The notes under the pieces: generated by a model
What the model saw: the letters and a program-made list of their open reading frames with translations, nothing else
What the model was told of the DNA's origin: nothing
Databases searched by the model: none
Shown: piece after piece, positions 34,471-41,105 of the stretch
How the letters are laid out: each line of letters starts with the position of its first letter
Numbering within the stretch: position 1 is the first letter of the stretch
Made by a program: the position numbers and the translations under genes
NCBI GenBank assembly: GCA_902783885.1
Contig: CACZSQ010000090.1
Location: forward strand, 1 to 54,931
DNA from: an uncultured Bacteroidales bacterium
GTDB lineage: Bacteria > Bacteroidota > Bacteroidia > Bacteroidales > Bacteroidaceae
Direction of reading: 5' to 3'
Length of the DNA: 54,931 nucleotides

Positions 34471-35661
34471 TTAAGAGGCAATGTCCTCTAGAATTTTCCA
34501 AACATTGAGCAGTCCACGGGGAACGTGGAAACAACCCTTCCACTTTCCACCCTTGAGAGGTAGCAGGACTTCGCCCTGACGGTTGAGGTAACCATACCAC
34601 TCCGGGTAGTCATCGTCGCGGAAGTGTGCCCATGCGTAGTCGTGGACGCGCTTGAACCAGTCGAGGCAGCGCTGGTCACCAGTGAGCTGGTAGCCCTTGA
34701 TGAGAGAAATGAGGGTCTCGAAGTGTACCCACCAAAGTTTCTGGTCGAACTCCAGCTCGTGACGGGGCTTGCCGAGACGGTCCATGAAATAGAATACACC
34801 TTCGTACTCCTTGTCCCAACCGTACTCCACCTCTGCGAGAGTGATATCGACAGCTTTCCTGATGAGTTCGGGGCGACCGAGGCGCTTGCCGAGATCCATG
34901 ACGAACCACATGGCCTCGATGGCGTGACCGGGATTCATCTTGCGACCGTCGAAGCAATCGACAAGGTTGCCGTCCTTGCCCAGAGCTTCTACGATGAGAC
35001 CGAGTTCAGGACGATAGAATACGTCCATTACCTCGTGGAGACAGTCGTCGATGGCTTTCTGCAGGAAGGCGGGCTCCAACAGGGGTTCTATCTCAAGGGC
35101 CACGTTGCAGAGAATCATGGGCAGATCGAAAGTCTTCAGTGCACGTGCTCCAGGGGCGGCCTTACTCCAGCGGCCTTTTGGGTTGTCAACCTTGGAGAGG
35201 ACAATGTCGAAGGTGCGCTTGGAGATGGACGCGTACTCAGCAGAACGGGCTGTGTCACCGGCAGATGCGAGGGCGATAGAAAGCTGTCCAAAAGCAATGA
35301 CAGCAAAGGTGTAGGAGAAGATGTTGTAGGGCTCCACGAGGGCATGGCCTTCGCGGTCCAGAGCGAAGTACCAGTTGAGGTTGCCGTCGTGGCCATACTT
35401 CTTCAGGAACTCTGCTCCCTGTATGGCAGCTTCGAGCCACTCCTGACGAGGCTCCACGGTGTTGTAGAGTTTGGAAAACATCCACACCTCGCGACCTTGC
35501 ATCCAGACAAACTTGTCGGTGTCATAGACGTTGCCTTCCCGGTCCAGGCAGGTGAAATAACCGCCGAACTCTGTATCCTGACTCTTGTTGAGCCAGAAAG
35601 GAATGGTGCGGTCCAATAATTCAGAGCGATACTGCTCTGCTAATTGTTTGAAGTCAATCAT
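34471..35661 (-). CDS. AGE-family N-acylglucosamine 2-epimerase
   Basis: A 396-residue alpha/alpha-barrel enzyme that interconverts N-acetylmannosamine and N-acetylglucosamine, the step after the sialate lyase in Bacteroidota. Features: RTIPFWLNKSQDTEFGGYFT near the start, VWMQGREVWMFSKLYN (about 52-67), MNPGHAIEAMWFVMD (about 231-245) with a conserved histidine, and QKLWWVHFETLISL (about 313-326). The final strand region reads YGYLNRQGEVLLPLKGGKWKG. It is the last gene of an operon with nanA and the NanM-symporter fusion, and is followed by a hairpin. Confidence 0.9.
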   Translation of the reverse strand: MIDFKQLAEQYRSELLDRTIPFWLNKSQDTEFGGYFTCLDREGNVYDTDKFVWMQGREVWMFSKLYNTVEPRQEWLEAAIQGAEFLKKYGHDGNLNWYFALDREGHALVEPYNIFSYTFAVIAFGQLSIALASAGDTARSAEYASISKRTFDIVLSKVDNPKGRWSKAAPGARALKTFDLPMILCNVALEIEPLLEPAFLQKAIDDCLHEVMDVFYRPELGLIVEALGKDGNLVDCFDGRKMNPGHAIEAMWFVMDLGKRLGRPELIRKAVDITLAEVEYGWDKEYEGVFYFMDRLGKPRHELEFDQKLWWVHFETLISLIKGYQLTGDQRCLDWFKRVHDYAWAHFRDDDYPEWYGYLNRQGEVLLPLKGGKWKGCFHVPRGLLNVWKILEDIAS

Positions 35662-35710
35662 AAATGTATTGAATAATGATAACGTTTAAGATTTATTCTA
35701 TTTTCAAATG

Positions 35711-35820
35711 TAATGGCCACGAATGGGGACATATAATGGTCATGTACAAACATGGCTGCACCGATGATACTATAAACGATGTGTTGATATGTACCCATTC
35801 ATGGACATTCGTGTAAAAAA
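35711..35820. mobile_element. MITE-like internally deleted derivative of the GxxExxY cassette
   Basis: The left end CACGAATGGGGACATATAAT (from 35719) and the right end TGTACCCATTCATGGACATT (from 35790), continuing CGTGTAAA, are inverted copies of each other and match the ends of the GxxExxY element at 38716-39281. The interior, read on the minus strand, encodes YQHIVYSIIGAAM, which corresponds to YQDIVYRIIGAAM in the intact gene. The sequence is therefore both ends plus a remnant of the 5' coding region. It lies between the symporter stop (35840) and the epimerase start (35661). Confidence 0.85.
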
Positions 35821-35839
35821 ATCTATTCAAGTAAGTATT

Positions 35840-38683
35840 CTATTCCTTCGGCAAGGTCTTCCAGGTGAGTCCCTTTTGTTCTTCTTGCTGCGGCATGAAG
35901 ATGCTGAGAATGAGGGCTACGAGGACGCTGACGAGCATTGATACGAAGCCGAAAAGAAGGAAGTTGGCGTTGGTGTAGAAGTTCATGTAGAGGACCGTTG
36001 CTGTGCCGCAGAAGAAGCCGATGAGGGCAGCCTTAGAGCCGATGCGTGGGAAGAAGATACCCATCATAAACAAACCGCCGATGGCACCGCTGAGGAGACC
36101 GAGAATGGTGTTGAAGTAGTCAAGTAGCGACTGGATATCAACTGTTGCCATCAGCCACGCAATGGCCATGCCTATCAAGCCGGCACAGATGCCAGCGATG
36201 CGAGCAACACGAACAGTGTCGCCCCCCCCTACGGCCCCCGAAGGGGCCTTCTTTTTATTCTTCAGCTTTCCCCACAAATCCACTGTGAAAGCAGTGGAGA
36301 TACTATTGATGTTGGAGGCGATAGTGGACATGGTAGCTGCGAAGACTGCAGCAATGAGGAGCCCTGCGAGACCTGCGGGCAGCTGGCTCATCATGAAGAA
36401 GGGGAAGATGGCATCGCCCTTGGCCATCGTGATGTCCAGTTCGGCAGGATGTGTCTTGAAGAATGTGTAGAGGCCTGTGCCGATGGTAAAGAAGGCGATG
36501 GTGACGACGACGGACATGAGACCATTGGTGAGGATGCCGCGGGCAGCACTCTTCTCATCGCTGGTGGTCAGATAGCGCTGGATAACTGTCTGGTCGCTGG
36601 TGTAGCTGATGAGGTTGTTGGCGAGACCGCCGAGGATGACAACCCACCACGTGGCGTTGACGAAGTCGAAGGGGTTCTCAGCATCGAAGAGGAAGAGGCG
36701 GAACTTGTCGTGGTCAGTGGCTATCTGCCAAAAGTCAGAGGCTCCGTTCTCACCTGTGTTTACAATCAGATAGACGGCAGCGAGGATAGCACCGCCCACG
36801 AGAATGATACCCTGAATGACATCGCCCCAAACAACGGCCTCCACACCGCCCATCGTACAATAGAGGATGGTGATGAGGGCCATGAGCGCTATACATATAT
36901 ATATATCAATGCCCGTGACAGCCGTCATGGCCAACGATGGCAGGAACAGCACGAGGGCTGTGCGGGCCACCATAAAGACGATGAACAGAATGCTGGCCAT
37001 GAGACGTGTGATGCTGTTGAAGCGGCGCTCCAGATACTCGTAGGCTGTGGTCACGTTCAGGCGCCGAAAGAACGGCAGGTAGTACCTGATGACGGGGAAC
37101 GACACCACAAGGATGCAAATCTGCATCGGGTAGTAAGTCCAGTCAGTGGCATAAGCCTTGGCGGGGATGCTCATGTATGTGATAGCACTGAGCATGGTGG
37201 CGAAGATGCTAATGCCGGCAGCCCACCACGGGATGCGGCCTCCACCCTTGAAGAAGTCTTCGCCAGAGTTGCCGGCACGCTTCATGAAGTAGTAGCCGAG
37301 ATAGACCATTCCTAAGAGATACAGGATGAGCACCACCCAGTTCAGCCATCCGAAGTGGGCTGTGTAGGTGATATCGACGCGAGTAGCATCCGCAGAGCGC
37401 ACGCCGGGTTTCTCCTCGCCGCCGATGACGAGGGCAGAGAGAGCACCAGAGGGCGAAGCCAGCGGCACCACAGCAGCACCGGCGCGGGCAATAAGGGGAC
37501 TATCGAAGAGCTCGGCCCATGAGTCCGTGACGGTGTGATAGACGAGTACGGAACTGCGGAAACGGTACCACGCTGGCTCCTGAGTCATGTAGGCATAAGC
37601 CTCGTCGCGGAGCTGTGCCAGCTGTTCAGCTGTGGTCGTCGTGTCAGCTATGAGGGCGTTACGCTCCAAGGCCGCTTCGAAGATCTCTTTGTTAACACCG
37701 CCGAAGCAGAGGATGTGGGCAGCGCCGGAAGGAAGGGCAGAGGCGCCGACCAAAGCCCCGCTCCCCGCTCCCCCGGTGGGTGGGAGAGCCGCAAAACCTA
37801 TGCCATCATCCATTTCTCCAGAGGATACGGAGTCCTCTCCCCCACGGGGGGAGTTAGAGAGGGGCTTTATCAGGGATGTTGCCATCCACTCTCCCTTCCT
37901 GGTGTCGTAATAGACACCGTTGCTGACGACCTTACGATAGCGGGGATCGAAGCCGCCAAGGAGGTAGAAGTTGCTGGCGAGGGCACCCTTCTGCACGGCT
38001 GCTGCCGGTTGCACGCGGGCAGGTCCGGGCACATCGGGAAGCTCTTCCCAAGCAGCACCCGTCTGGGATTCAAACCATGAGGCGGGCAACGGCCATTTCA
38101 GGCGGAAAGCCTGGCGATTGGGGATGCCATCATGCAGACCTCCAGCGACATAGATAAAGCCATCACCATATGCAGCAGCGAAGTTGTCGAGGGCGCAGGG
38201 CAGAGCAGGCAGATCGCGACTGATGGCCTCGCCGCTCGTTCCAAGCGTCAGAAGAACTGCGAAGTCCTCACTCTTCTGGCCATCGGCAGTACCACCGAGA
38301 CAGACAAGACCTTCAGGGGTCGTGACGCTGGCTCCGTAAGCAAGTGCACAAGGCAGCGAACCTGCACGCCACCATTTCTCCTTTCCATCGAGCGCAATAG
38401 CATAAATATCAGTATAGAAGACCTTCTGGCCACCTTCGGCAGCAGGCACATCAGGGAAGTTGCAACCTCCGGCCACCAAAACGCGGTCGGAAGGCACTGA
38501 AAAACCCTTGGGAATAAAACCAGCAAAAGCACCACTCACACCCTGACCGCCAAAAGCGGAGAGAGCAGGGAGGGGCAAGAAGGAAGCGTTGTTGAAGCGA
38601 TGGGCTTTCGTGTCCTGCGCGAACAGATTGACGGATACTGTGCACAAAAATAAAGATAAGAAAAGAAACAGGATTTTCTTCAT
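35840..38683 (-). CDS. NanM-type sialate mutarotase (Kelch) fused to a sodium:solute symporter
   Basis: A 947-residue fusion. A signal peptide (MKKILFLFLSLFLCTVSVN) precedes a Kelch propeller (about 20-440) with NanM features such as GGCNFPDVPAAEGGQKVFY and repeated GG blades. A linker leads to a sodium:solute symporter with about 13 transmembrane helices (from LNWVVLILYLLGMVYLGYYF), including GGGRIPWWAAGISIFATMLS and SYTSDQTVIQRY. It probably equilibrates sialic acid anomers in the periplasm and imports them. ATG 38683 is used because the upstream frame runs into the GxxExxY element's terminal repeat. Two in-frame palindromic insertions occur (37752-37868, 36221-36250). Confidence 0.9.
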   Translation of the reverse strand: MKKILFLFLSLFLCTVSVNLFAQDTKAHRFNNASFLPLPALSAFGGQGVSGAFAGFIPKGFSVPSDRVLVAGGCNFPDVPAAEGGQKVFYTDIYAIALDGKEKWWRAGSLPCALAYGASVTTPEGLVCLGGTADGQKSEDFAVLLTLGTSGEAISRDLPALPCALDNFAAAYGDGFIYVAGGLHDGIPNRQAFRLKWPLPASWFESQTGAAWEELPDVPGPARVQPAAAVQKGALASNFYLLGGFDPRYRKVVSNGVYYDTRKGEWMATSLIKPLSNSPRGGEDSVSSGEMDDGIGFAALPPTGGAGSGALVGASALPSGAAHILCFGGVNKEIFEAALERNALIADTTTTAEQLAQLRDEAYAYMTQEPAWYRFRSSVLVYHTVTDSWAELFDSPLIARAGAAVVPLASPSGALSALVIGGEEKPGVRSADATRVDITYTAHFGWLNWVVLILYLLGMVYLGYYFMKRAGNSGEDFFKGGGRIPWWAAGISIFATMLSAITYMSIPAKAYATDWTYYPMQICILVVSFPVIRYYLPFFRRLNVTTAYEYLERRFNSITRLMASILFIVFMVARTALVLFLPSLAMTAVTGIDIYICIALMALITILYCTMGGVEAVVWGDVIQGIILVGGAILAAVYLIVNTGENGASDFWQIATDHDKFRLFLFDAENPFDFVNATWWVVILGGLANNLISYTSDQTVIQRYLTTSDEKSAARGILTNGLMSVVVTIAFFTIGTGLYTFFKTHPAELDITMAKGDAIFPFFMMSQLPAGLAGLLIAAVFAATMSTIASNINSISTAFTVDLWGKLKNKKKAPSGAVGGGDTVRVARIAGICAGLIGMAIAWLMATVDIQSLLDYFNTILGLLSGAIGGLFMMGIFFPRIGSKAALIGFFCGTATVLYMNFYTNANFLLFGFVSMLVSVLVALILSIFMPQQEEQKGLTWKTLPKE
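36221..36250. repeat. GGCCCCTTCGGGGGCC palindrome inserted in frame in the symporter domain
   Basis: The dyad GGCCCCCGAAGGGGCC at 36233-36248 is followed by a run of C on the plus strand. On the coding strand it is read as KAPSGAVGGGDT, a cytosolic-loop insertion in the symporter. The style resembles the other GC-rich mini-repeats, but the sequence is different. Confidence 0.65.
37752..37868. repeat. 117-bp composite palindromic element inserted in frame in the Kelch domain
   Basis: The outermost AAAGCCCC (37752-37759) and GGGGCTTT (37861-37868) are perfect inverted ends. Just inside lie two dyads, CTCCCCCGGTGGGTGGGAG and CTCTCCCCCACGGGGGGAG. The total is exactly 39 codons. The encoded linker (KPLSNSPRGGEDSVSSGE onward) is low in complexity and out of keeping with the propeller repeats around it. 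Confidence 0.85.
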
Positions 38684-38715
38684 AATAAGGAAAGTCTTGG
38701 CATTAACCTTTTCAA

Positions 38716-39281
38716 TTTTTACACGAATAACCAGGAATGGGGACATATAATAATCATAAATTATCTAAGCCATAGTAGTCACTATTGGGATTATCATAGA
38801 CAGGGTTCATATTACGGTCAAGAAGTATGCATTCATTGGTCTCCTCATTCAGCCAGTAGCGTTCGCCCTGCAGCAAAGGCTGGCCAAAATTTATTAGCAG
38901 GCTTATCGGAGTACGTGTCAAACGCATGTAGTTGAAGAGTTGAGCACGATGAGCAGAGATAAGTTCGGATACCGATTTTAATTCTATCATTACTTCACCA
39001 ACCATGATGTCCGGCTGATAGTGTTTCTCCATACGTTGTCCCTTGTAGAAACAAGGGACCTGACACTCCATCTTATTCTCTATGCCCCGCTGTTCTAATT
39101 CTATATGCAAAGCCTCAGTATAAAAGGCCTCTGCCAATCCCCAATTCAGTTCATCCTGAACAGTCATGGCAGCACCAATTATTCTGTATACGATATCTTG
39201 ATATGCACTAGGCTCCTTCAAACTGAAAAGCTTATTCATGACCCATTATATGTACCCATTAATGGCCATTCGTGTGAAAGA
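38716..39281. mobile_element. GxxExxY gene cassette bounded by ~42-bp inverted repeats
   Basis: The left end (38716-38757) contains TTTTTACACGAATAACCAGG then AATGGGGACATATAATAA. The right end read inward (39281 to 39238) contains CTTTCACACGAATGGCCATT then AATGGGTACATATAATGG. By eye about four fifths of the positions match. The single gene between them uses an ATG (39239) and a TGA (38756-38754) that lie within the innermost bases of the repeats. No target-site duplication was evident. It sits in the gap between nanA and the symporter gene with about 32 bp spare on each side. Confidence 0.85.
38754..39239 (-). CDS. GxxExxY family protein (PD-(D/E)XK-like)
   Basis: A 161-residue protein of the GxxExxY family (TIGR04256 type). 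The name motif is GLAEAFYTEALHIELEQRGI (about 34-53, G..E..Y). The nuclease-like core has KHYQPDIMVGEVMIELKSV, which supplies the D...E-x-K residues of a PD-(D/E)XK fold (about Asp78, Glu87, Lys89), and the family's FNYMRLTRTPISLLINFG. The biochemical function is unproven. The gene fills the cassette between inverted repeats completely. It is on the same strand as the sialic acid operon, so it is probably co-transcribed. Nothing in it points to sialic acid. Confidence 0.88.
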   Translation of the reverse strand: MNKLFSLKEPSAYQDIVYRIIGAAMTVQDELNWGLAEAFYTEALHIELEQRGIENKMECQVPCFYKGQRMEKHYQPDIMVGEVMIELKSVSELISAHRAQLFNYMRLTRTPISLLINFGQPLLQGERYWLNEETNECILLDRNMNPVYDNPNSDYYGLDNL

Positions 39282-39313
39282 AAAACTCGTATTCTAAGGT
39301 ATCTAATTTGTGA

Positions 39314-40240
39314 TTACTTATTGCAATGATTGAAAAAGTCGATAGCTTCAAGCTCTTTACGCAGCTGCACCTCCTCTTCGGGTGTGACGTTCTGGAAGGG
39401 TGTTCGGTTGGGGCCGAGGTCGAGGCCGATGAGCTTCATGATGCGCTTGCCGCCAACGATGTTTCCGCGGAAGTGGCAGATGACGTCGATGACGTCCTGA
39501 GCGTAGTTCTGCAGTTCGCGAGCCTTCTCCAGGTCACCAGCCTTCCATGCATCGATGATGCCTACGAGGCAACGGCCATTGTAGTTCGTGGTGCCGCCGA
39601 TGCCACCCTGAGCACCGCCCATAGCGAGGCAAGGCAGAATAGTCTCGTCCTGTCCATGAAGCATGTCGAACTTACCATCCTTGTAGCGGCGGCAGCGGTT
39701 GTACTCATAGAGGCTCTCGAAGGTGTATTTGATTCCTGCGAAGTTGGGAATGCGGCCATCGACAGCCTGCAGGAAGTCGAGCATCGAGAGGAAAGCGCCA
39801 TTGAAAGCGGGGATGTGATAGAAATAGAAGGGAAGCTTGGGTGCACCACAGGCAATCTCCTCGCAGTACTTCACCAGTTCCTCGATGCGACCCACCTTGG
39901 GGAAGGGAGGTGCCATGGCGCCGATGCCGAAGGCTCCAATCGCCTGAGCGTGCTCGGCAAGGTTACGGCTACTGCGGACACAGGTGCTGCCCACGTGAAC
40001 GATGACCTTGAAGTCTTGGAAATCCTTGGTGGCTGCCATCCATGCTTCTGCAATCTGCTTGCGTTCCTCCTCGGTGAGCATATAGCCTTCACCACTTGAG
40101 CCGTTGATAAACACGCCTTTAAGGCCGTTGCGATAGAGCAGGGCTGCGTACTCGGGAATAATAGACAAATTGATGCTGCCGTCAGCATTCATCGGGGTAA
40201 AAGGGGCGTCAATAAGCCCTTTGATCTTCTCGAAATTCAT
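39314..40240 (-). CDS. nanA: N-acetylneuraminate lyase
   Basis: Cytosolic aldolase that splits sialic acid into N-acetylmannosamine and pyruvate. The 308-residue product shows INGSSGEGYMLT (pyruvate-carboxylate site, about 45-56), YFYHIPAF with the catalytic tyrosine (about 141) and FAGIKYTFESLYEY with the Schiff-base lysine (Lys171). ATG 40240 is chosen because a -7 box (40295-40302) overlaps the longer frame's start. It is the first gene of the operon with the symporter fusion and the AGE epimerase; no sialidase is visible in the window. Confidence 0.95.
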   Translation of the reverse strand: MNFEKIKGLIDAPFTPMNADGSINLSIIPEYAALLYRNGLKGVFINGSSGEGYMLTEEERKQIAEAWMAATKDFQDFKVIVHVGSTCVRSSRNLAEHAQAIGAFGIGAMAPPFPKVGRIEELVKYCEEIACGAPKLPFYFYHIPAFNGAFLSMLDFLQAVDGRIPNFAGIKYTFESLYEYNRCRRYKDGKFDMLHGQDETILPCLAMGGAQGGIGGTTNYNGRCLVGIIDAWKAGDLEKARELQNYAQDVIDVICHFRGNIVGGKRIMKLIGLDLGPNRTPFQNVTPEEEVQLRKELEAIDFFNHCNK

Positions 40241-40294
40241 AAAAAAGGTATTTAGAGTTATTTGCAAGTTAGTTCTTTCGTGCGATTGACGGCA

Positions 40295-40302
40295 CAAAGA
40301 TA
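40295..40302 (-). promoter_or_regulatory. Promoter -7 box for the sialic acid operon
   Basis: TATCTTTG on the minus strand, 54 bp before nanA. It is divergent from the queuosine operon promoter at 40369-40376. Confidence 0.65.
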
Positions 40303-40368
40303 GATAGTATTCTTGGAAGTTCCAAATTTTTAAGGAGAGGATTATTTGGCCAACTCGCAGAAAAACGC

Positions 40369-40376
40369 TACTTTTG
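40369..40376 (+). promoter_or_regulatory. Promoter -7 box for the queuosine operon
   Basis: TACTTTTG with TTTG at 40345-40348, spacing 20. Transcription would begin near 40383, about 10 bp before the riboswitch. Confidence 0.8.
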
Positions 40377-40392
40377 CAGCCTCAATTGAACG

Positions 40393-40431
40393 CAGGGGTA
40401 TCCCAGACCACCCCCTTTAACAAAACAAGGA
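40393..40431 (+). promoter_or_regulatory. preQ1-I riboswitch
   Basis: A P1 stem (AGGGGT at 40394-40399 with ACCCCC at 40410-40415), a short loop, and the A-rich tail TTTAACAAAACAAGGA. The tail TTAACAAAACAAGG is the same as in the well-studied Thermoanaerobacter tengcongensis preQ1-I class. The AAGG segment pairs with the loop in the bound state and here also serves as the ribosome site, 3-4 bases before ATG 40434. Ligand binding should therefore block translation of the downstream transporter. Confidence 0.88.
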
Positions 40432-40433
40432 AA

Positions 40434-41105
40434 ATGAAAAAACAAGACACTGTAAGCGTTACGTTCATGTTGCTCGGCGTAACGTTCTGTGTTTGCCTCA
40501 TCCTGGCAAACCTTTTGGCAACAAAGCAAGTGCAATTCGGTCCTCTGAACCTGACAGCAGGCGTATTGGTGTTCCCCATCTCGTATGTCGTCAACGACTG
40601 CATCACCGAGGTTTACGGCTACCGACGCGCCAAGCTCATTATTTGGACGGGTTTCGTGATGAATTTCGCCTTCGTGCTCTTAGCATGGCTGGCCGACCTT
40701 ATTCCCGGTGCTCCTTATTGGACGAACCAGGAAGGATTCCATGCGCTCTTCGGCCTGGCTCCCCGCGTGGCTTTGGCTTCGTTTGCGGCTTTCCTTGTTG
40801 GCTCTTTCCTGAACGCATACGTGATGAGCCGTATGAAAATCCACGACAAAGGACGCCGATTCTCCTTACGCGCCATCGCCTCCACACTGGCTGGCGAGGT
40901 GAGTGATTCGCTCATCTTCTTCCCGATAGCCCTTGGTGGCATCGTACCCGAAAAGAACCTGCTGCTCATGATGCTCAGTCAGGTGGTTGTCAAAACCCTG
41001 TATGAGATTGTTGTGCTGCCGCTGACCATCCGTGTCGTAGCGTGGTTGAAGCGCACGGAGGGCATGGATGTATATGATGAAAACGAAAGCTACAGCGTCA
41101 TCTGA
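40434..41105 (+). CDS. Queuosine precursor transporter (YhhQ/VUT family)
   Basis: A 223-residue inner-membrane protein with about six helices. LILANLLATKQVQFG at the start, VVNDCITEVYGYRRA in the middle, EVSDSLIFFPIA and the late SQVVVKTLYEIVVLP are diagnostic of the YhhQ family, which imports preQ0/preQ1 or related 7-deazapurines. ATG 40434 follows directly after the riboswitch; an upstream in-frame extension to 40374 would run through the riboswitch and promoter. It is transcribed with queC, 47 bp downstream. Confidence 0.95.
   Translation: MKKQDTVSVTFMLLGVTFCVCLILANLLATKQVQFGPLNLTAGVLVFPISYVVNDCITEVYGYRRAKLIIWTGFVMNFAFVLLAWLADLIPGAPYWTNQEGFHALFGLAPRVALASFAAFLVGSFLNAYVMSRMKIHDKGRRFSLRAIASTLAGEVSDSLIFFPIALGGIVPEKNLLLMMLSQVVVKTLYEIVVLPLTIRVVAWLKRTEGMDVYDENESYSVI

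Follow-up and report, generated by a model that had tools for sequence, protein, structure and literature searches.

A GxxExxY nuclease gene between inverted arrays of short repeats: a probable minimal selfish element in Bacteroidota

Results

The window analysed here, a stretch of 54,931 nt, is contig C90 of a 2.2-Mb draft genome (85% complete) of an uncultured Bacteroidales bacterium, and the cassette studied in it (38716-39281, 566 bp) sits between two protein genes of the minus strand. In the ORF list, one of these (35840-38683, start at the ATG at 38683) is what we take to be a kelch-type (NanM-like) N-terminal part fused to a sodium/solute symporter, and the other (39314-40240, start approximate, placed with the help of relatives) is presumably a nanA-like lyase. 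The longest-ORF start of the former (38746) falls within an arm of the element and is unlikely to be the true one. The single ORF of the cassette, also on the minus strand (38754-39239, 161 aa), matched PF13366 with 113.3 bits (cut-off 22) and TIGR04256 with 116.9 bits (cut-off 35), in agreement with the PD-(D/E)XK-like GxxExxY family named in a preliminary description of this DNA. At E <= 0.001, a Pfam search of this gene returned PF13366 alone, with neither PF01797 (HUH Y1) nor any known transposase, and no rRNA match was found within 35000-40500. Removal of 38716-39281 leaves about 65 nt between the nanA end (39314) and the next ATG (38683), the gap that had been proposed. A scan of genome contigs for relatives of the gene gave four loci in Bacteroidales drafts, one of them labelled sheep rumen. 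Another GxxExxY gene of the window's own genome (L046, G000:C45) was ringed by repeated ACGGAT-type palindromes. Rfam yielded two matches, both under the gathering score; a weak preQ1 riboswitch match (27.3 bits, gathering score 39) lies at 40389-40434, before a gene that, as far as we can judge, resembles a queuosine-precursor transporter.

The ends of the cassette are inverted copies of each other round the gene, as had been noticed before. They formed the sole inverted pair reported within 38000-40000, with 35-nt arms that are 83% complementary and 493 nt apart, at 39245-39279 (5' of the gene, stacked CACGAATG-type units) and 38717-38751 (3' of the gene, inverted copy). The preliminary description had spoken of precise inverted repeats of about 42 bp; their inversion stands, the match is imperfect, and what had passed unseen is that they are iterated short units and not plain terminal repeats, since by eye an arm is made of four related ones stacked on each other (CACGAATG, CCATTAATG, ACATATAATG and TCATGAAT). 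In a gapped alignment the cassette flanks scored 41, the best of 100 shuffles reaching 24, and the score observed for 41-nt arms was reached by 1 of 20,000 random window pairs of the same spacing, draws that could include the element itself. A chance repeat was ruled out on these two tests.

When the window's arm was searched in its own genome with three mismatches allowed, five matches were obtained, namely both cassette ends (39245-39275 and 38721-38751), 35784-35814, and both halves of a palindrome on contig C114 with window-type arms and no gene inside; the reversed arm, our control, gave no matches in this genome. The earlier inventory was right about the cassette, but a further palindrome of its family had escaped it. 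This one, at 35712-35810 (minus strand), is directly behind the symporter gene, which thus lies between two copies of the element. This second copy is internally deleted: its arms (35712-35734 and 35787-35809) surround a 39-nt coding remnant (about 35751-35789) that by eye reads YQHIVYSIIGAAM and resembles the beginning of GxxExxY proteins, and relatives have the cassette at the same place. As 31 of the 39 remnant nucleotides agree with the cassette gene, the cassette is no recent copy of its neighbour and the two are old relative to each other. We compared the symporter site in 22 loci (20 fetched ones, L007 and the window), two of which, L116 and L120 with a more remote symporter (63-65%), fall outside the comparison. 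Three loci carried a full gene of the window type, one an internally deleted gene, two relic palindromes (the window being one of these) and two a different GxxExxY gene (54-59% identical, one truncated), and 12 had no GxxExxY gene. A later arm search found an 85-bp gene-less palindrome at the symporter site of genome G468.

In the nanA-symporter gap, by comparison, a GxxExxY gene was missing from all 32 further nanA loci over the stretches covered (at most 1.5 kb), and in 26 of these the N-terminal part of the symporter ORF adjoins nanA. This answers a check proposed with the preliminary description, that of homologous operons for an empty site: a gene regularly present in the gap is ruled out, and within this sample, therefore, the position of the window's cassette is unique. 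In the gap of locus L084 (G119:C4), which has no GxxExxY gene, CGGATT and ATTAAT-type units formed a nested palindrome. Another site, before a gene that we assume to be scpB, was followed in 13 genomes from three genera of another family. The element was full in four of them, shortened and decayed in one and absent in eight, with 27-37 nt between the anchors at empty sites versus 460-553 nt at filled ones, and by eye its start coincides with the upstream gene's stop codon. At the symporter and scpB sites, no target-site duplication was recognised by eye against the diverged empty sites. No recent movement was seen at the sites compared, and the clear within-genome duplicates were longer segmental or tandem duplications by which the element ends are not defined. 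Some gene-bearing elements were common to orthologous places, so that inheritance in place is common. Taken over evolutionary time, the gain and loss of the element at particular sites is well supported.

The survey of other GxxExxY genes, also proposed earlier, covered 85 of them, 55 drawn from the genus, the family and close relatives and 30 from the phylum. The set of 55 contains the window's own gene together with the four relatives closest to it, as well as some broken genes. An inverted-repeat score of at least 30, a threshold chosen after the data were seen, was reached by 54 of the 85 (33/55 and 21/30), and 31 stayed below it; arms are common, not universal. In the controls, the direct orientation reached this score at 22 GxxExxY genes (15/55 and 7/30), and 0/32 nanA genes did so in either orientation. 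By eye, the arms are arrays of mostly 3-4 short units (for example CGCGGAT x3, CAATAATT x4 or CACAGAG x4), whose sequence varies from gene to gene among the Bacteroidota and whose spacing is mostly 9-10 nt, or about one helical turn. The autocorrelation was modest, with 0.38 and 0.36 at lags 9-10 in the family set (expected, 0.32) and 0.38 at lag 10 in the phylum set (expected, 0.29), where the still higher value at lag 2 (0.41) is due to the motif itself. An initial control, in which the upstream flank of one gene was aligned with the downstream flanks of others (99th percentile, 41 and 46), was set aside as the main test, in favour of the direct-orientation and nanA controls, because arm motifs common to different genomes inflate its scores; the window score of 41 failed it because close relatives share its arms. 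Among eight plasmid loci from several phyla, one in Gemmatimonadota displayed CGCAGAG arrays by eye (inverted score 120, direct 114) and two in Bacteroidota had inverted scores of 36 and 45, and the remaining five (one each from Alphaproteobacteria, Spirochaetota and Fusobacteriota, two from Bacteroidota) were under the threshold at 19-24.

Arms and proteins were compared by a Mantel test in the 52 of 85 genes with a score of at least 30 and a protein of more than 90 aa. Arm similarity rose with protein similarity (rho 0.40, equalled in 0/2000 permutations), also after dereplication to 23 genes (rho 0.21, 13/2000), and in 21 pairs of genes from the same genome the arm similarity was just 0.13-0.40. 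The arms follow the protein clade and not the genome, and this pairing of gene and arm is well supported. At one orthologous site, compared in five genomes, the dominant unit was CAGATT in two genomes, CGGATT in one and CGAATT in two; one of the CGAATT genomes had a weak downstream arm, and the CAGATT arms held a few CGGATT units. An alignment of 70 chosen relatives had nine invariant columns, E37, Y40, D77, E86, K88 and Q100 among them, and dN/dS was 0.023-0.126 in the 7 of 12 pairs with a computable dS, several of them near saturation; the window gene's own pairs were saturated (pN 0.10-0.13, pS 0.79-0.92). Judged from these alignments, the protein is under purifying selection and has retained its catalytic residues. 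Its structure was predicted with confidence (pLDDT 91.5), and Foldseek at E <= 0.001 gave two matches, both chains of SSO0001, which we take to be Cas4-like, with a poor superposition (rmsd 13.6, TM about 0.4); a sequence search for solved relatives gave one match, with an E value of 0.97. The weak resemblance of the predicted fold to Cas4-like and lambda/RecE-type nucleases is no more than a hint.

To get insight into gene-less copies, we searched 296 Bacteroidota genomes for the double unit CCACRGAG-N1..4-CACRGAG, with the reversed pattern as control. PF13366 was present in 151 of these genomes and the double unit in 70, with 328 matches in PF13366-positive and 5 in PF13366-negative genomes, and 11 for the reversed pattern. 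Genomes with two or more matches, a cut set after the data were seen, are called array-rich here; 42/151 PF13366-positive and 0/145 negative genomes were so (p 2e-14 in a Fisher test that, like those below, takes genomes as independent and ignores phylogeny), which is to say that PF13366 occurred in 42/42 array-rich versus 109/254 other genomes. Several genomes had more matches than genes (28 against 5, 20 against 2, 9 against 1), to be read against the two matches that each GxxExxY gene can itself supply. CACRGAG arrays flanked 16 of 30 PF13366 genes, 8 of them in inverted form on both sides. Among 40 array loci picked from the match lists, not randomly, 15 held compact convergent palindromes that enclose no gene, 17 in all (a pair of them flanks a gene, at L229), and the others held divergent pairs or single arrays. 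In genome G410, the two arms within each of four copies are mirror images but for one mismatch at most, though the copies differ among themselves. Divergent gene-less pairs with a fixed middle of 19 or 32 nt recurred at several sites in G371 (L221-L223) and G262 (L269-L272). Among the matches listed, the CACRGAG spacer was nearly constant within a genome (1 nt in G453, 2 in G262, 3 in G371, 4 in G237), which looks as if it were set by a resident protein. The window's own arm family occurred in 12 of 139 genus genomes (the control matched none), together with a full gene in 4, a deleted gene in 1 and no gene at the loci read in 7; in the family sample it occurred in 2/101 genomes, both among the 6 with a homolog of at least 57% identity.

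PF01797 (Y1), too, was present in each of the 42 array-rich genomes. By stratum, array-rich genomes made up 42/129 of those with both families, 0/22 with PF13366 only, 0/80 with Y1 only and 0/65 with neither, so that Y1 mattered among PF13366-positive genomes (42/129 vs 0/22, p 5e-4) and PF13366 among Y1-positive ones (42/129 vs 0/80, p 1e-10). In this sample PF13366 is needed for array-richness, and Y1 may contribute to it or be a sign of genomes with much mobile DNA. Y1 genes were ruled out as carriers of the CACRGAG arrays, which were found at 0 of 20 Y1 genes picked (not randomly) from the match lists of array-rich genomes; 12 of these 20 had flanks of their own with scores of at least 30 and, by eye, several had their own GTAG-tagged repeats. 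PF01797 had no match in the window's draft genome, which is 85% complete.

By a crude longest-ORF rule applied to 84 of the 85 loci, both neighbours run in the direction of the GxxExxY gene in 56 and both are opposed to it in 5. As a palindrome-ended element could land either way, this bias argues for selection for read-through expression or for a strand-aware mechanism. In the predicted RNA fold of the cassette, the arms form by eye a closing stem that includes the start codon and the stop-codon region, and the fold was matched in stability by 0/100 shuffles (z -4.6). Genes of the PF05635 family (23S_rRNA_IVP) of Bacteroidota are similarly built: of 30 (L154-L183), 13 had inverted flanks of at least 30 and 2 direct ones, 25 ran with and 2 against their neighbours, and their flank arrays showed sharp lags at 7 and 14, that is, 7-nt units. 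CACRGAG arrays flanked 0 of 30 PF05635 genes. On the flank data for Y1, GxxExxY and IVP genes, therefore, each of these three unrelated protein families has its own repeat type in the samples studied.

Discussion

The cassette is real and belongs to a widespread family of elements. We believe that the 566-bp segment is probably a minimal selfish element, similar in its working to REPIN/RAYT pairs and built on a PD-(D/E)XK nuclease. Such an element would consist of two inverted arrays of short units, the arms, round one GxxExxY gene. The protein would cut at its own array, which it would recognise in the form of a hairpin, of a cruciform or of repeated duplex sites; repair or copying after the cut would then spread gene-bearing and gene-less units, in the way in which RAYT transposases are thought to spread REPINs. 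The gene would be read from the host transcript, which could account for its sense placement between host genes. As to the mobile cassette imagined in the preliminary description, the idea withstood both conditions set there for its refutation, and it is borne out in part by the filled, decayed and empty states of one site and by the gene-less copies; that the GxxExxY protein moves it is what we infer as the best reading, in the face of sites at which neither a target duplication was recognised nor a recent transposition seen.

It is unlikely, in our opinion, that another enzyme, in the first place a Y1/HUH (RAYT-like) transposase, moves the palindromes and that GxxExxY is a cargo or helper caught between two of them. 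Movement of palindromes in trans is attributed to RAYTs (accessible text of PMC3116915), PF01797 is found in every array-rich genome, and PF13366-positive genomes are array-rich in 0/22 cases when they lack it, versus 42/129; yet none of the 80 genomes with Y1 and no PF13366 is array-rich, the arrays are missing from the 20 Y1 genes, several of which have GTAG-tagged repeats of their own by eye, and the window's genome gave no PF01797 match in a draft that is 85% complete. The co-occurrence of Y1 with array-rich genomes (p 5e-4) thus makes help in trans possible. We give a somewhat smaller chance to a role at the RNA level: as in the intervening sequences (IVSs) of 23S rRNA, the arms of the unit would fold into a stem cleavable by RNase III, sparing the host operon, and the unit would for the most part be passed on in place. 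According to the available part of PMC4990558, an IVS has an ORF and a terminal stem and is excised by RNase III, and the predicted closing stem, the sense bias (56 vs 5 among 84 loci) and the similar build of 13/30 PF05635 genes all fit; RNA excision alone, however, predicts neither gene-less palindromes that track the gene nor arm sequences that go with the clade of the protein. This explanation and the nuclease-driven element are compatible and do not exclude each other.

That GxxExxY is a resident gene whose arms are binding sites for autoregulation, with the dispersed arrays as its regulon, appears very unlikely. Units mostly 9-10 nt apart, near one helical turn, and arms that match the protein would suit such operators, but sites that are cleanly present or absent, internal deletions that retain the arms, placement behind stop codons and palindromes with no gene inside would not. 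Even the 31 of 85 genes without clear arms hardly lend any credit to a chance repeat beside an ordinary operon gene, which is contradicted by the shuffles, the nanA controls, the PF13366 association, the states of the scpB site and the random-pair test.

More tentatively, and short of an even chance, GxxExxY proteins might mobilise transposable elements of a new class, in which a lone PD-(D/E)XK nuclease recognises the short-unit array that belongs to it and spreads gene-bearing and gene-less palindromes between operon genes in the sense direction. IVP genes with their 7-nt arrays would then be a parallel system on another fold, and unrelated proteins would have arrived at one general design, that of a small gene with iterated arms cognate to it. 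The GxxExxY family is named only after its motif; if it drives the palindromes, a very common protein of unknown function acquires a testable role, the origin of many unexplained intergenic repeats becomes clear, and a new mechanism would be needed for their spread by a lone PD-(D/E)XK nuclease. The spread of rRNA intervening sequences, an old question, can also be approached through the parallel build of IVP genes. In the papers searched, mostly outside subscription journals, we found none that links GxxExxY or such arrays to mobility; in the accessible parts, PMC8934634 places a GxxExxY gene beside a reverse transcriptase and PMC12085832 contains the word GxxExxY.

Among known systems, insertion sequences share with the cassette the terminal inverted repeats, and MITEs and their parent insertion sequences share internal deletion that leaves short copies with the same ends (35712-35810, the C114 palindrome and that of G468; compare the available portion of PMC9769881), but the element has no transposase of a known class and no target duplication recognised by eye. 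The IVSs of 23S rRNA (S23p/IVP gene, PF05635), called selfish and of unclear origin in the text available from PMC4990558, likewise enclose a small ORF between complementary, stem-forming ends. Here, in contrast, the element lies between protein genes and encodes another protein family, and the IVP genes of Bacteroidota have inverted flanks too, but with units 7 nt apart. The window gene is a member of TIGR04256 and of PF13366 (PDDEXK_3) by both models, which cover the protein alone. The closest parallel in working is with REPIN/RAYT systems, in which, according to the accessible parts of PMC3116915 and PMC8266576, a gene is flanked by cognate palindromes, gene-less copies lie between genes and the repeat type tracks the gene type; arms at GxxExxY genes and gene-less palindromes dispersed in genomes with the gene are the counterparts here. 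The enzyme, however, is a PD-(D/E)XK nuclease and not an HUH Y1 transposase (PF01797), the arms are arrays of 3-4 short units, and gene-bearing copies also come and go. In place of the GTAG or CGTC tag that is the rule for REPIN/RAYT repeats (PMC3733652, in the passages available), the arms inspected have, by eye, ACACGAAT or AACCACAGAG-like strings at their ends. The element works like REPIN/RAYT pairs, but its enzyme and its repeat ends place it outside that group.
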